From NCBI GenBank assembly GCA_017938145.1, contig JAGBCB010000010.1, forward strand, positions 100,063 to 164,062: a stretch of DNA of 64,000 bases, in the 5' to 3' direction. The stretch's first letter is position 1; the number at the start of each line of letters is the position of its first letter. The position numbers and the translations under genes are program-made. Below the pieces are notes generated by a model. The model had not been told where the DNA came from. It was given only the letters and a program-made list of their open reading frames with translations, and searched no databases. Of the stretch, positions 40,714 through 45,704 are shown piece by piece. This DNA comes from Lachnospiraceae bacterium (GTDB lineage: Bacteria; Bacillota; Clostridia; Lachnospirales; Lachnospiraceae).

Positions 40714-41490
40714 ATGGCTGGGTATAGAGTAGAGATTTGCGGAGTAAATACAGCAAAGCTTCCGCTGCTTGCAGGAGAAGAAAAAGAAGAACTGATTCGT
40801 AAGATAAAAGAAGGAGATATACAGGCAAGAGAAACTTATATTAAAGGGAATTTGCGACTGGTATTAAGTATTATCCAGCGGTTTTCCTCCAGTAATGAAA
40901 ATGTGGACGATTTGTTTCAGATAGGCTGTATTGGTCTGATGAAAGCCATTGATAATTTTGACATTAGTCAGGGAGTAAAATTTTCAACCTATGCAGTACC
41001 GATGATTATCGGGGAAATCAGACGGTATCTACGTGATAATAATTCCATCCGTGTCAGCCGTTCCCTTAGAGATATTGCTTACAAGGCAATTTATGCCAGA
41101 GATATGCTGCAAAAAAATATGGACAGGGAACCTACCATTGAGGAAATAGCAAAAGAATCCGGTCTCCCGAGAGAGGATATTTTAAATGCACTGGATGCGA
41201 TTCAGGCGCCAATGTCTTTGTATGAGCCGGTGTATTCCGATTCCGGTGACACCTTGTTTTTGATGGACCAGGTTAGTGACAAGAAAAACAGGGAAGAAAA
41301 TTGGATTGAAGATTTAGCAATTAAGGAAGCAATGGAAAAATTAAGTCCAAGAGAACAAAATATTATTGAACTTCGATTTTTTGAAGGGAAAACACAGATG
41401 GAAGTAGCGGATGAAATTCATATTTCCCAGGCACAGGTGTCAAGATTAGAGAAAACAGCGTTAAAGAATATGCGAAATCACCTAAAATAA
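40714..41490 (+). CDS. sigG: RNA polymerase sporulation sigma factor SigG
   Basis: Late forespore sigma factor. 258 aa with the diagnostic N-terminus YRVEICGVNTAKLP. Region 2 is GNLRLVLSIIQRF, DDLFQIGCIGLMKAIDNFD and FSTYAVPMIIGEIRRYLRDN, and region 4 is ISQAQVSRLEKTALK. CAGGAGG precedes ATG 40714. The order spoIIGA-sigE-sigG is conserved in spore formers. The hairpin repeat at 41490 begins at its stop codon. Confidence 0.97.
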   Translation: MAGYRVEICGVNTAKLPLLAGEEKEELIRKIKEGDIQARETYIKGNLRLVLSIIQRFSSSNENVDDLFQIGCIGLMKAIDNFDISQGVKFSTYAVPMIIGEIRRYLRDNNSIRVSRSLRDIAYKAIYARDMLQKNMDREPTIEEIAKESGLPREDILNALDAIQAPMSLYEPVYSDSGDTLFLMDQVSDKKNREENWIEDLAIKEAMEKLSPREQNIIELRFFEGKTQMEVADEIHISQAQVSRLEKTALKNMRNHLK

Positions 41491-41542
41491 AAATACATCC
41501 TCAGAACCCGCTCATCACTAACGGTTCTTGAGGATGTATTTT
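41490..41542 (+). repeat. Conserved-loop hairpin, copy A (after sigG)
   Basis: The outer stem is 14 bp (41490-41503 with 41529-41542, T bulge at 41528). The inner stem is GAACC/GGTTC (41504-41508, 41523-41527). The 14-nt loop CGCTCATCACTAAC (41509-41522) matches the loops at 43923-43936 and, inverted, 44922-44935. The stem overlaps the sigG stop codon, and the T-rich 3' arm runs into TTTATTTAAAA, so it can also act as a terminator. Confidence 0.8.
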
Positions 41543-41619
41543 ATTTAAAATTTATAGATGAAAAAGACAAGTTTATGGTATAATAAATTTATATGATACT
41601 TTAAGGAGGAAGCAAAACT

Positions 41620-43878
41620 ATGAGAAATATCATCAACCTGAATGAAAACTGGAAATTCATTCAGAAAAATGTGGGTTTACCAAGTGTTTATCCAACCGAC
41701 TGGGAATCGGTGGACTTACCTCATACTTGGAATGCAGTGGACGGAAATGACGGAAACGGCAGTTATGATAGGGGCAATTATTGGTATGCAAAGTCTTTTG
41801 AAACTCCAAAGCAGCCGTTGGCGGGAGGCAGAACTTTTGTAGAAATTTTAGCCGCAAATTCCGAAGCAACGGTTTATATCAATGGAACCAAGGTTTGCTA
41901 CCATGAAGGCGGTTACTCCACCTTCCGTGCGGATATTACCGAGTACTGTAAAGAAGAAGGCGAAAACCTTTTAGTGGTGGAGTGCAGCAATATCGCTAAC
42001 GATTACGTATATCCGCAGAATGCAGACTTTACTTTCTATGGCGGTTTGTATCGTGGTGTAAATTTAATCAGCGTACCAAACGTCCATTTTGATTTGGAAT
42101 ATTACGGCGGCCCGGGCATTATGGTAACTCCAAAGCCTACCGACTGTGGCGGCGCTACCTTTGAAATTGAAGCATTTGTAAAGAATGCGGATGAAAACTT
42201 TACGGTGCAGTACAGCATTTTTGATGAAGAGGGCAATGAGGTTGGTTATGCGGTTCGTCCGGCAGATACAGCAAAGACCACCATTTTTGTTCCGGATATC
42301 AATCTTTGGAATCTGGATGCACCTTACCTTTATACGGTAATTGCAGAGCTTCAGAGAAGAAATGAAACTTACGATGATATCGAAGTAAACGTGGGTGTCC
42401 GCAGCTTCTCTTGCGATCCTCAGAAGGGATTTATCATCAATGGTGTGGAGACTCCTCTTCGTGGTGTTTCCCGTCATCAGGATATGGTGTACCGTGGCAA
42501 CGCGTTAGATGCGGACGACCATTATGCAGATGCGCTGCTTATTAAGGAGCTGGGTGCTAATACCATTCGTTTGGCACATTATCAGCATTCCCAGGATTTT
42601 TATGATGCCTGCGACTTATTAGGTTTTGCTGTTTGGGCAGAAATTCCGTTTATTTCTGTTATGAGCAAGAATCCGAAGGCTCATCAGAACTGCATCGAAC
42701 AGATGAAGGAGCTGGTTATCCAGAATTACAACCATCCATCCATTATGTTCTGGGGTATTTCCAACGAAATTCTCATCGGAGGTATTTCCGAGCAGTTAGT
42801 GGAAAATCACAAGGAATTAAATGCTTTGGTGAAGGAGCTTGACCCAACACGTCTTACCACCATCGCACACGTTACTATGACTCCGGTGGATGGTCCGATG
42901 CACTATATTACCGATACCGAAAGCTACAACCATTACTTTGGCTGGTATATGGGCAAGATGGAAGATAACGGTCCATGGCTGGATAACTTCCACGAAAAGC
43001 ATCCGGACATCTGCCTCGGCGTTTCCGAGTACGGTTGTGAAGGTATTATCACTTATCATGGTTCTAATCCAAAGTGTAAGGACTACAGCGAGGATTATCA
43101 GGCATTGTATCATGAGCACATGGCAAAGGTTCTTGATGAAAGACCTTGGATTTGGTCCAGCCATGTTTGGAATATGTTTGACTTCGGCTGTGCAGCCCGA
43201 AATGAAGGTGGAGTAGCAGGCCGTAACAATAAGGGTCTTGTGACTATGGACAGAAAGACCAAGAAGGACAGCTACTACATTTACAAGGCTTATTGGAATG
43301 CAGAACCAATGGTTCATCTTTGCGGTAAGCGTTATGCGCAGCGTGCCGGTGAAACTACGGAAATTAAGGTTTATACAAACCAGGATTCCGTTACTCTTTA
43401 CATGAACCGTGAAAAAGTAGGAGAGACTACACCTGTAGACCATATTGCAAAGTTCAGTGTTTCCTTGGCAGACGGTTTCAATATTTTCCTGGCAGTGGCC
43501 GGAGAATGTAAGGATACCATGACCATCGAAAAGGTGGCAGAGGAACCTGCAATCTACACACTTCCGGTGGAAGATAACGGTCAGGAGGGCGCAGCTAACT
43601 GGTTTACTACAGAGGGCAGTCTTGACTTAGATGCTCCTATGGAATTCCCGGAGGGCAAGTTAAGTATTAAGAATACTCTTGGTGAAGTAGCAAAGAACCC
43701 GGATGCCCTGGCATTCTTCTGCCAGTTATCCGGCAGAGAAATGGGCCCTGGCATGCCGATGTGGGAAATGATTTCCAATATGTCCGTAGAGATGATGATG
43801 GGCATGGCTGGAAATATTCCGGAAGGTGCTATGGCAATGATAAACAAGAAATTAAATGCATTTGATTTGGTGAAGTAA
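41620..43878 (+). CDS. Glycoside hydrolase family 2 (beta-galactosidase-like)
   Basis: 752 aa, no signal peptide, so probably cytoplasmic. The N-terminal jelly-roll sugar-binding domain begins NLNENWKFI...DLPHTWNA. An Ig-like domain follows, then the TIM-barrel with the acid/base Glu in FWGISNEI (~384) and the nucleophile Glu in GVSEYGCEG (~470). The ~100-residue C-terminus is Met-rich and helical (SNMSVEMMMGMAG). Beta-galactosidase is the best guess; beta-glucuronidase or another GH2 activity is possible. A TATAAT at 41579-41584 lacks a clear -35, and AAGGAGG precedes the ATG. No sugar transporter or regulator is adjacent. Confidence 0.88.
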   Translation: MRNIINLNENWKFIQKNVGLPSVYPTDWESVDLPHTWNAVDGNDGNGSYDRGNYWYAKSFETPKQPLAGGRTFVEILAANSEATVYINGTKVCYHEGGYSTFRADITEYCKEEGENLLVVECSNIANDYVYPQNADFTFYGGLYRGVNLISVPNVHFDLEYYGGPGIMVTPKPTDCGGATFEIEAFVKNADENFTVQYSIFDEEGNEVGYAVRPADTAKTTIFVPDINLWNLDAPYLYTVIAELQRRNETYDDIEVNVGVRSFSCDPQKGFIINGVETPLRGVSRHQDMVYRGNALDADDHYADALLIKELGANTIRLAHYQHSQDFYDACDLLGFAVWAEIPFISVMSKNPKAHQNCIEQMKELVIQNYNHPSIMFWGISNEILIGGISEQLVENHKELNALVKELDPTRLTTIAHVTMTPVDGPMHYITDTESYNHYFGWYMGKMEDNGPWLDNFHEKHPDICLGVSEYGCEGIITYHGSNPKCKDYSEDYQALYHEHMAKVLDERPWIWSSHVWNMFDFGCAARNEGGVAGRNNKGLVTMDRKTKKDSYYIYKAYWNAEPMVHLCGKRYAQRAGETTEIKVYTNQDSVTLYMNREKVGETTPVDHIAKFSVSLADGFNIFLAVAGECKDTMTIEKVAEEPAIYTLPVEDNGQEGAANWFTTEGSLDLDAPMEFPEGKLSIKNTLGEVAKNPDALAFFCQLSGREMGPGMPMWEMISNMSVEMMMGMAGNIPEGAMAMINKKLNAFDLVK

Positions 43879-43890
43879 ATTAATTTTATT

Positions 43891-43970
43891 AAATCCAATA
43901 CAAAAAATAGACCTTAGAAACCCGCTCGCCGCTGATGGTTTCCTGCGGTCTATTTTTTGTATTTGGATTT
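43891..43970 (+). repeat. Conserved-loop hairpin, copy B (after the GH2 gene)
   Basis: The outer arms 43891-43913 and 43947-43970 pair over 23 bp with a single-base bulge. There is an internal loop TTA/CTGC and a GAAACC/GGTTTC inner stem. The 14-nt loop CGCTCGCCGCTGAT (43923-43936) differs from copy A only by transitions. It begins 12 bases after the GH2 stop. The stem sequence is unrelated to copies A and C. Confidence 0.8.
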
Positions 43971-44018
43971 AGCCAAAGTTATCTATATCACCAAATCAGA
44001 TGAATTTTAATAAATTGT

Positions 44019-44031
44019 TGAAACGGTTTCA
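44019..44031. promoter_or_regulatory. Short dyad resembling a LacI-family operator
   Basis: TGAAACGGTTTCA is a perfect 6-bp inverted repeat around one G, similar to LacI/GalR-type sites (TGAAAC..GTTTCA). It lies in the 211-base gap between the GH2 gene and the possibly truncated gene. No regulator gene is near, and no convincing promoter can be aligned with it. Confidence 0.25.
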
Positions 44032-44089
44032 TGCAGTCTTGCGTCTTATAGATGAAAAATGAAAAATAACCGATTATCCTGCTGCAATT

Positions 44090-44782
44090 ATGGTGCACGG
44101 AAAAATATATTACTTGTCAGTGGAGGAAAGCCCGGGTGAAGTAGACGAGAGTGCAATCCTTGGCTATACAGAATCCTATACTGATACTTTTCCCAAGAAG
44201 CATGGTGAAACCAACTTTAACCGGGAACTTGGTATGCCGTATGCCAGGGTAGAAGGCGGAATGGCCGTTCTTTATGACAACGAATGGCGGTTGTGCTATC
44301 CAAAGGAGAAAGCAATTCAGCAGAAACAGACGGTGTTTTTGCCGGAAAACATGCCGGAAGACTTTGAAATTTCCCTTACCTGGGGCTGTTACGGTATCAG
44401 TTCTTATGACAGCAAGACAGGAATGCTTGTTAAAACTACCGATGCAACCCATCCAACGGATTATGTTGCTTGTTACGAGTTATCGGTAGAGGAAAAACAG
44501 CAAATTTATGAGATTATCAGAACATTGAATCCTGAGGATTATCCGGATGTCTATGACCCGCAGGAAGGAGAATGTATGTCAGAACCATCCATGACGCTTG
44601 TTTTAACAGTTAAATCCAATGGAACAGAAAAAGCAATTAGCGCAAAGGATATTGCCTATGACTTTACTGCTAAGAATAAAAAAGGGCAGGCATTTCTAAC
44701 CGCTTGTGATAAAATAAAAACTTTATTAATTGAAACTGAAGAATGGAAAGCATTACCGGACTATGAGTTTAAATATGAATAG
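44090..44782 (+). CDS. Hypothetical protein, probably 5'-truncated remnant
   Basis: 230 aa that I cannot assign to a family. No signal peptide and no ribosome site precede ATG 44090. The frame is open upstream only to a TGA at 44060-44062, and the codons between read DYPAAI before MVHGKIYY. A start in mid-strand like this, directly after a protein-like stretch, suggests that an export signal and N-terminal region were lost. The rest is intact, with a beta-rich start and a helical end (FLTACDKIKTLLIETEEWK). In intact relatives such small domains tend to be surface lipoproteins; that is an impression only. Confidence 0.45.
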   Translation: MVHGKIYYLSVEESPGEVDESAILGYTESYTDTFPKKHGETNFNRELGMPYARVEGGMAVLYDNEWRLCYPKEKAIQQKQTVFLPENMPEDFEISLTWGCYGISSYDSKTGMLVKTTDATHPTDYVACYELSVEEKQQIYEIIRTLNPEDYPDVYDPQEGECMSEPSMTLVLTVKSNGTEKAISAKDIAYDFTAKNKKGQAFLTACDKIKTLLIETEEWKALPDYEFKYE

Positions 44783-44850
44783 CTCCATGTGGATAGCCCT
44801 GGACTTATGGCTCTTTTTAAGACTTTCCTGCACTTGTCACAACCTAACGC

Positions 44851-45008
44851 AACCCCTGTCTTTCTTTTTGGAAAAACAACTTAGATAAATCTTAGAGAAA
44901 CAGAACTACCCCGTACGAACCGTTAGCAATGAGCGGGTTCGCAGGGGTAGTTCTGTTTCTCTAAGATTTAAATAAATTATTCTTCCTCCAAAAAGAAAGA
45001 CAGGGGTT
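44851..45008 (-). repeat. Conserved-loop hairpin, copy C (nested, after the DUF4397 gene)
   Basis: The outer arms 44851-44872 and 44987-45008 pair perfectly over 22 bp. The inner arms 44886-44912 and 44944-44970 pair perfectly over 27 bp. The tip has a GTAC/GCA internal loop, GAACC/GGTTC, and a 14-nt loop which on the - strand reads CGCTCATTGCTAAC. It fills the 256-base gap between two convergent genes and could terminate both. The tip is in sense orientation for the - strand gene. Confidence 0.85.
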
Positions 45009-45038: not shown

Positions 45039-45704
45039 TTAGCAGATGAACTGAAGTCCAGGACTATCTACAGTACCAATGAGGGAAATCGTGCATACAG
45101 AGTTTCTTACGAAATTCACTCTGGTGCTGATAAATGGGTAACCCGGATTAGTTCTGCGGAAAATGGTTACATTATAGTAACCCGGAATAATGTACAGATA
45201 GTCGGTATATTCGCTATAATCAAGGTCGGAGGCTACCAACTGACCGTTGATGTAAATATCTACCGGCTCCAACATGGCATTTACATTATAGAAACGTGCC
45301 TGTGCTACAGAGGAAACGGAAGAGTTGCCGAAAATAGGGGTGAGCCAGGTGTAACTCCAGAATACGTTATTGTTGTTATTGTTTGGGCGGGACGGAGTTG
45401 TTGTAGAACCGCCGCCTACCGGTGGAAACGGAAAGCTTGGATTGCTTGGAGTAGACGGAAGAGAAGGTGTCTGGGTGCCTAAAGGACCTTCGTCAGGAGC
45501 TGCCGGTCTATTGGATGGGCGATTGGACGGTCTGTTATTTTCGGAACCGATGTTATCGTTTAAATCCGGTGTTGCAGAGCCGGCAGGGCCTTCGCCCGGA
45601 GTTGCAGGAACGTCATCCTGTTCGAATACCGGAATGCTGGAGCGGGTCTGCTTTGGTGCAGTCGGTGCCGTATACTTGTAGTAATGGGTTTTACTGTAAT
45701 CCAT
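45039..45704 (-). CDS. DUF4397-domain protein with a Pro/Asn-rich N-terminal half
   Basis: 221 aa, the only clear - strand gene. Residues 1-~115 are low complexity: an N-terminal DYSKTHYYKYTAP, Pro/Ser/Gly segments, two RPSN repeats and a run of six Asn. Residues ~125-221 match the DUF4397 pattern (ARFYNVNAMLEPVDIYINGQ, then a YLYIIPGYYNVTIFR strand). There is no signal peptide or membrane helix. GAGG 8 bases before the ATG supports the start. A spore-surface or cytoplasmic role is possible; the sequence does not decide. Confidence 0.75.
   Translation of the reverse strand: MDYSKTHYYKYTAPTAPKQTRSSIPVFEQDDVPATPGEGPAGSATPDLNDNIGSENNRPSNRPSNRPAAPDEGPLGTQTPSLPSTPSNPSFPFPPVGGGSTTTPSRPNNNNNNVFWSYTWLTPIFGNSSVSSVAQARFYNVNAMLEPVDIYINGQLVASDLDYSEYTDYLYIIPGYYNVTIFRRTNPGYPFISTRVNFVRNSVCTISLIGTVDSPGLQFIC

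Follow-up and report, generated by a model that had tools for sequence, protein, structure and literature searches.

Hairpins with a conserved cap and variable arms in one Lachnospiraceae genus: a probable REP/SPRITE-like interspersed palindromic repeat

A shared stem is the usual mark of a palindromic repeat family. The hairpins described here, from a Lachnospiraceae genus, have a conserved tip instead. Judging from the portions of the papers available to us, the closest known kind is SPRITE of pneumococcus (PMC3049150), followed by REP families without a dedicated transposase (PMC3733652). As far as its partial text goes, SPRITE is a small interspersed terminator-like repeat with an 18-bp stem and AAAA/TTTT ends that lies near gene 3' ends, is enriched between convergent genes, and is limited to a species group, target duplication not being established (PMC3049150). 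REP and the GTAG- and CGTC-tagged repeats appear in the accessible part of their description as extragenic palindromes, with families of 20-100 units common, and CGTC families, too, seemingly lack a dedicated transposase (PMC3733652). RepRanger, according to the available extract, has a default loop limit of 11 nt and removes T-tailed hairpins (PMC12306157); on both grounds it would pass over elements of the type reported here.

Three further systems are relevant, each as represented in partial accounts. DNA-uptake-sequence terminators are a dispersed DNA signal that doubles as a terminator (PMC1852404; PMC3049150, PMC2267715). The target hairpin of DGRs is constrained in stem length and composition more than in stem sequence, its loop sequence and size being critical, and it works as a DNA hairpin or cruciform, independently of replication orientation (PMC3240598). 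At E. coli quasipalindromes, template switching onto the nascent strand makes the repeat more perfect (PMC7202029).

No description of the present family was found in the literature, as judged by titles and openings of abstracts, mostly outside subscription papers.

Three hairpins and their common cap

The window, i.e., the whole 64,000-nt stretch of DNA that was analysed, belongs to genome G000. It was compared with a sister species (G001), two further genus mates (G002 and G003), and a member of another genus (G226). The MAGs G000 and G001 are both incomplete, at 78% and 86%, respectively. ORF calls were mechanical, and statements on terminators and remnants were often made by eye. The relevant features of the window are as follows.

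40714..41490, + strand: sigma-70 family factor (Pfam Sigma70_r2/r3/r4), upstream of copy 1; called sigG in the sequence-only reading
41481..41550, + strand: copy 1 hairpin, 3' of the sigma-70 family gene; covariance model 69.4 bits
41509-41522, + strand: copy 1 loop CGCTCATCACTAAC, 14 nt; clamp GAACC/GGTTC
41620..43878, + strand: glycoside hydrolase family 2 (GH2; Pfam Glyco_hydro_2 domains), upstream of copy 2
43890..43970, + strand: copy 2 hairpin, 3' of the GH2 gene; covariance model 60.9 bits
43923-43936, + strand: copy 2 loop CGCTCGCCGCTGAT, 14 nt; clamp GAAACC/GGTTTC
44090..44782, + strand: 230-aa ORF between copies 2 and 3, without Pfam match
44851..45008, - strand: copy 3, a giant palindrome flanked by the DUF4397 gene (-) and, convergent with it, an ORF (+); covariance model 65.6 bits
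44922-44935, - strand: copy 3 loop CGCTCATTGCTAAC, 14 nt; clamp GAACC/GGTTC
45039..45704, - strand: DUF4397 gene (Pfam DUF4397), upstream of copy 3

The sequence-only reading had placed hairpins with 14-nt loops at these three positions. All three are there, with folds far more stable than those of dinucleotide shuffles (z -8.3, -8.5, and -15.8 for copies 1, 2, and 3, respectively). The list produced by a simple terminator scan with a loop limit of 8 nt does not contain them. Copy 1 has arms of ca. 20 nt with A- and T-runs. Across the family, the median arm extent is 33.5 nt, reaching ca. 137 nt in copy 3 and ca. 150 nt at the serA locus described below.

The conserved part is a cap, consisting of a loop, CGCT-N(1-3)-CGCTRAC in most copies, and a short clamp, mostly RACC/GGTY. 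The loop is 14, 13, or 12 nt long in 35, 19, and 5 of 59 aligned rows, respectively, and all four bases occur at its position 7. The earlier observation that all loop differences are transitions is therefore correct for the window trio and does not extend to the family. Next to the clamp, an internal loop most commonly reads TTC, TCC, TAC, or TGC on its 5' side and GTAC, GTGC, or TTGA on its 3' side; these strings are a tendency, not a fixed sequence.

At gathering scores, the window gave no matches to Rfam. Twelve loci searched at E up to 1 returned six rows, all below gathering scores, the best being MIR5048 on the copy 3 palindrome (E 3.6e-8, 49.5 bits versus 160) and the rest MIR841, tpke11, and a snoRNA. 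At threshold, the absence of a matching Rfam family, as expected from the initial inspection, was thus upheld for the window and the 12 loci.

Copy number, distribution, and genomic context

The 14-nt motif CGCTCRYYRCTRAY has 12 exact matches in G000, all of them hairpin tips by reading, versus none for a reversed-pattern control. A clamped 20-mer with up to three mismatches gave, versus control, 25 versus 1 matches in G000, 17 versus 4 in G001, 3 versus 4 in G002, and 2 versus 0 in G003, rows at three mismatches being mostly chance-like. In a search of 61 genomes, a clamped 22-mer matched 10 times in G000, eight times in G001, and nowhere in the remaining 59. A GTDB scan with a stricter pattern, whose scope possibly did not include the window's own genome, returned eight stretches, all in the water-deer colon Lachnospiraceae MAG RGIG8677 and with coordinates matching G001.

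A first covariance model contained 32 copies; extra copies with loops of 12-13 nt were then found, and the second model, R2, comprises 59 aligned rows (E up to 0.01). L086, with three mismatches and no hairpin, was left out of alignment A2 and model R1. Alignment A4 omits L145, the partial remnant at L133, and those model rows that were duplicates or lay on the opposite strand. R2 copy counts are lower bounds, scoring having covered the best 150 of the 613-667 first-look candidates in each genome: at least 36 rows in G000, one of them a duplicate on the opposite strand, representing at least 35 places; at least 28 in G001, representing at least 27 places and one partial remnant; and at least two in G003, one of which is convincing. 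Among the best 150 candidates of G002, there was no match at E up to 0.01. The best R2 match has an E-value of 2.8e-16, model E-values being rough, and three weak new places (two in G000 and one in G001) proved, when read by eye, to be true hairpins with related loops. Run directly on 864 kb, R2 detected three copies in the window, five in 400 kb of G000, and none in 400 kb of G002, two opposite-strand rows being set aside. Further copies beyond the window trio, which the sequence-only reading made a test of its claim, thus exist in both G000 and G001.

Wider scans scored the best 14 or fewer candidates per genome. At E up to 1e-4, matches among 397 genomes of the family were confined to G000; among 392 genomes of the order, they came from G000 and, in a single instance, from G586, a match that reads as chance in coding-like DNA and was rejected as a family member. 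These scans recovered 14 of 35 G000 copies, with G001 and G003 absent among the rows listed, and would miss copy-poor genomes because so few candidates were scored in each. Copies have so far been seen in three species of one genus (G000, G001, and G003). Carriage by phages was considered and rejected: the 10 viral contigs that match the clamped motif do so, by reading, by chance, in coding-like DNA that lacks hairpin arms.

The copies are positioned just 3' of stop codons and are flanked by A- and T-runs. At least five A were present in the 8 nt before 59 of 60 hits, and at least five T in the 8 nt after 56 of 60, versus 81 of 300 random stretches. With orthologs treated separately, 39 of the 60 hits lie between convergent genes and none between divergent genes; at tandem genes, 11 are sense and 5 antisense, while 4 fall within small ORF calls and 1 is at a contig end. 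The ORF calls (ca. 80-170 aa) overlapping four hits are taken as spurious, the other hits being intergenic. In G000 alone, 24 of 33 copies lie between convergent genes. The background, taken from 400 kb, contains 321 gene pairs, of which 38 are convergent; among the 164 pairs separated by 40 nt or more, 33 are (binomial test with 24 of 32: p 2.3e-16 and 3.7e-11, respectively).

In the sequence-only reading, the tip of each window copy faced in the sense direction of the gene upstream. Copy 3, however, sits between convergent genes, and such sites are uninformative because any orientation is sense to one of the two genes. Tandem sites were tallied with like-oriented orthologs merged and doubtful ORF calls set aside; calls at L142, L133, and L099 were dropped, being contradicted by orthologs or resting on short ORFs, and L096, at a locus presumably encoding a PspC-like protein, was reclassified as tandem-antisense from its flanking ORFs. 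Six tandem cases are sense (window copies 1 and 2, L080, L087, L090, and L092) and four are antisense (L091, L094, L096, and L130); L092 and L094 are one site in two species, so that the 10 cases represent nine sites. Flanking genes are Pfam-supported with two exceptions, the short ORF on the left of L096 and the one that follows window copy 2. A sense rule thus fails genome-wide, and the consistent sense orientation expected of a 3'-UTR RNA element is not seen at tandem genes. The gene at L130:3807-4823, which adjoins one of the antisense copies, has a borderline match to PDDEXK_2, a transposase-family nuclease.

Paired arms and changes at orthologous sites

In the 59-row alignment, which was fitted to the structure so that pairing is inflated, 93.5% of cells are paired versus 63.0% after shuffling. 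Double-sided changes occur in 15 of 16 pairs, a number reached in 3 of 500 shuffles; they affect 278 cells, versus five with one-sided changes. Nine of ca. 851 cells (ca. 1%) are G-U, and the covariation score is 0.783 versus 0.207 shuffled. A 32-row MAFFT alignment gave 86.3% paired cells, 14 of 16 pairs with changes on both sides, 123 double-change cells, and a covariation score of 0.613 versus 0.188. The number of further pair types is not clearly above that of shuffles, being as high in 200 of 500 for 59 rows and in 41 of 500 for 32 rows. Rows in these alignments include both orthologs and paralogs and so are not independent. The near absence of G-U suggests that pairing is kept on both strands; scarce G-U would be expected of either a DNA palindrome or a two-way terminator, since both strands must pair. 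Arms are not always unrelated: the absence of a shared stem sequence, noted for the window trio, holds there, while in the family CATAT-type arms are common to 15 of 59 rows, or 14 loci (L125 and L133 are orthologs), and neighbouring copies, such as the two at L104, sometimes share arms.

Comparison of flanks placed a G001 copy at the same site for 21 of 33 G000 copies, 17 in the same orientation and four inverted (L083/L135, L079/L139, L092/L094, and L123/L138). In the L123/L138 pair, the arms are nearly the same and the apical part is reversed. Among the 17 same-orientation sites, L093/L097 sets a newer G000 copy against an older G001 copy. In 18 same-orientation ortholog comparisons, one of them between G000 and G003, mean identity was highest in the core (0.865), followed by each arm (0.77) and the flanks (0.749); the 20-nt core exceeded the arm mean in 13 comparisons, was lower in three, and tied in two. 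With the core above the arms in 13 of 16 untied comparisons, the proposal of selection on the loop receives moderate support.

Two of the 33 G000 copies, those at the sigma-factor gene and at prs (assigned by Pfam), have no G001 copy at the same site, which brings the sites compared to 23. By reading, the hairpin downstream of the sigma-factor gene is present in G000 alone, and at prs the position of the family copy in G000 (L119) is taken by three different ordinary terminators in G001, G002, and G003. The L119 copy is 87% identical over 61 nt to a non-orthologous place in G001 (C14). At the GH2 site, the cap hairpin of the G001 ortholog differs by arm changes that are paired, and G002 has, by reading, an ordinary terminator. 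At the DUF4397 site, a G001 cap hairpin has different arms, and an ordinary terminator is read in G003. Recent movement is thus seen at few sites, and the dating of events is limited by the four genomes.

Broken copies occur beside complete ones. At L093, a complete copy comes after the 5' half of an older one, the cut lying within the loop, and in G001 this older copy is whole; a comparable remnant is present at L094. By reading, an inverted half copy lies just upstream of copies L083, L122, L126, L127, and L135. In G001, a remnant cap stands beside a complete copy at L133:3508-3598, and a single copy is found at L125 of G000. No target-site duplication was seen.

The longest palindrome lies at a gene that is a 2-hydroxyacid dehydrogenase by Pfam and that we take to be serA. 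Its cap is kept in three species while the arms differ; 123 of 158 (G000), 121 of 156 (G001), and 125 of 185 (G003) columns pair between the arms. The palindrome's outer ends repeat, in inverted form, the terminator of the gene itself. In G002 and G226, the serA terminator is present once, without a cap; because it has an inverted copy in the cap-bearing species and is single in these two, an inverted duplication centred on the cap occurred at serA. When the 5' side was compared with G002 as the native flank, 40, 12, and 254 of 300 shuffles were as good for G000, G001, and G003, respectively; for the reversed 3' side, the numbers were 245, 215, and 105. The original flank beyond the terminator could be either side. 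A conserved serA-region RNA of which the cap is a part was considered and rejected, because the 3' block and the terminator are present without any cap in G002 and G226. This near-invariant block, GCTGACTACATACTTTTTATAGACTCTCTTTCTAATRCGG, lies right after the serA-like stop codon and is followed by the terminator in all four genus mates; it also occurs in another genus, with 96% identity over 50 nt. Its sites are L087:3469-3545, L100:371-447, L146:3658-3735 (-), L163:1501-1574 (-), and L164:1501-1549, and the block is a candidate conserved 3'-UTR RNA or motif.

No mobilising enzyme was identified for the family. PF01797 (the RAYT/IS200 search) matched one gene in G000 (C52), more than 3 kb from the nearest copy, two genes in G001 (C8), on a contig without listed copies, and, more weakly, two in G003, on contigs without a listed copy; there was none in G002. 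The G000 and G001 genes are IS200-like and located away from the copies, and the hairpins beside them are, by reading, of other kinds; RAYT/IS200 mobilisation was rejected. Reverse transcriptase (PF00078) was found in G000 and G003 and not in G002 or the 86%-complete G001; its absence from copy-rich G001 led us to reject it as the mobiliser.

A scan of 400 kb of G002 for recurrent long hairpin loops revealed nothing comparable, one tandem array aside. In the same scan of G000, A/T-rich 7-mers were present in three to four loops, as often as CGCTAAC, so that loop scanning by itself did not single out the cap family there. The G002 array (L226:14835-15090) consists of ca. 51-nt units containing TCCACCTACGTTC, with one masked stretch, and a flank of the L131 copy contains short tandem units close to ACCCCGCAGGCCACCTTTTT. 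Strong G000 hairpins near 15618 of L203 and near 16969 of L204 have loops ending in TATGGTAAG and AATGGTAAG, possibly a second small loop family.

Interpretation and relation to known systems

We think it probable that the hairpins are a REP/SPRITE-like interspersed palindromic repeat that acts as a two-way terminator, with a cap that is probably read as DNA and arms paired by template switching. Their sites are those where intrinsic terminators sit, and termination should occur in both directions, as predicted from their sequence. A mobile repeat is favoured because related arms occur at non-orthologous places, because relatives have ordinary terminators or nothing at some of the same sites, because 4 of 21 orthologous sites have the cap in inverted orientation, and because broken older copies lie beside complete ones. 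We infer that the cap, with its two-CGCT loop, clamp, and often uneven internal loop, may be recognised by a putative single-strand-DNA or cruciform-acting factor for its spread or persistence. The arms would drift freely, template switching within the palindrome rewriting one arm from the other; such switching at quasipalindromes would explain why arms change in matched pairs and why they are replaced. Recombination between the arms could invert the cap. Of three explanations offered initially, a mobile palindromic element with diverging arms is the best supported, and an RNA-binding site and a 3'-UTR stability element are weakened by the near absence of G-U and by the genome-wide failure of the sense orientation on which they rest.

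An RNA-level regulon, in which the cap is an RNA-binding protein or small-RNA site in mRNA 3' ends and the loop is selected as the stem drifts, is in our view unlikely. In its favour are the greater conservation of the core than of the arms and the keeping of the serA cap across three species despite differing arms; at convergent sites the loop is sense for one gene in either orientation, and tandem cases lean sense, 6 to 4. The same tally, however, leaves 4 of 10 tandem cases antisense. The G-U content of ca. 1% is also against it, although two-way terminators would be equally devoid of G-U. In addition, no other exact 14-nt match that could represent a complementary RNA exists on either strand of G000, and the identified adjoining genes (sigma factor, GH2, 2-hydroxyacid dehydrogenases, prs, and ABC transporters) have no common theme.

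Alternatively, ordinary terminators may spread by gene conversion or microhomology-driven template switching, with no dedicated recognition and the cap as a mere shared seed. Terminator turnover in the genus is fast, the prs locus differing in all four species; adjacent copies at L104 share arms; and quasipalindrome-perfecting template switching is documented in E. coli, in the part of the report available to us (PMC7202029). Against these points stand the higher conservation of the core at most orthologous sites and the 400 kb of G002 that contain no comparable recurrent long loop apart from the tandem array, and we consider this explanation improbable. Chance similarity of three terminators, imaginable when only three copies were visible in the window, is refuted by the copy count (12 exact copies versus none in the control, model matches down to E 2.8e-16) and has a negligible probability.

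The interspersed palindromic repeat could also be extended to a cap-seeded palindrome system, an idea that we put forward as quite speculative. A fixed cap, read as single-stranded DNA or a cruciform by a putative enzyme and placed at gene ends, would prime fold-back copying of the local flank, so that each locus builds its own stem; the cap would flip, be cut at the loop, and be reseeded, and the whole would be a selfish maker of bidirectional terminators.

A fixed loop on a stem rewritten in matched pairs provides a natural record of terminator gain, replacement, and inversion. The cap is a concrete search target for a factor that reads hairpin tips, and the family is a warning that a conserved terminator loop is not necessarily an RNA signal.

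Comparison with known systems, as described in the partial texts cited above, places the family as follows. It resembles REP in being an extragenic palindrome in many copies (at least 35 places in G000). Unlike in REP, conservation resides in a 12-14-nt loop; no RAYT (Y1 transposase) gene flanked by copies was found in G000, G001, G002, or G003, and reading of alignments and flanks revealed no GTAG/CGTC tag at the stem foot and no shared tetranucleotide there, mostly A/T runs. The DGR target has in common with the family a critical loop and a stem less constrained in sequence, but it has a 4-nt GRNA loop at one site, whereas the cap family has 12-14 nt in tens of copies; DGRs have a reverse transcriptase, and cap-bearing G001 (86% complete) has no match to one. 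DNA-uptake-sequence terminators similarly carry a dispersed signal at terminators, but the signal forms the stem there and the loop here. From SPRITE, as its available description has it, the family is set apart by a conserved loop and clamp on a stem that varies with compensation, and by giant palindromes, inverted caps, and a different lineage. It is like SPRITE in its restriction to a group of species, in its position close to gene 3' ends, in its terminator-like hairpin with T-rich (56 of 60) and A-rich (59 of 60) ends and in its enrichment between convergent genes (24 of 33 in G000, 0 of 60 divergent).
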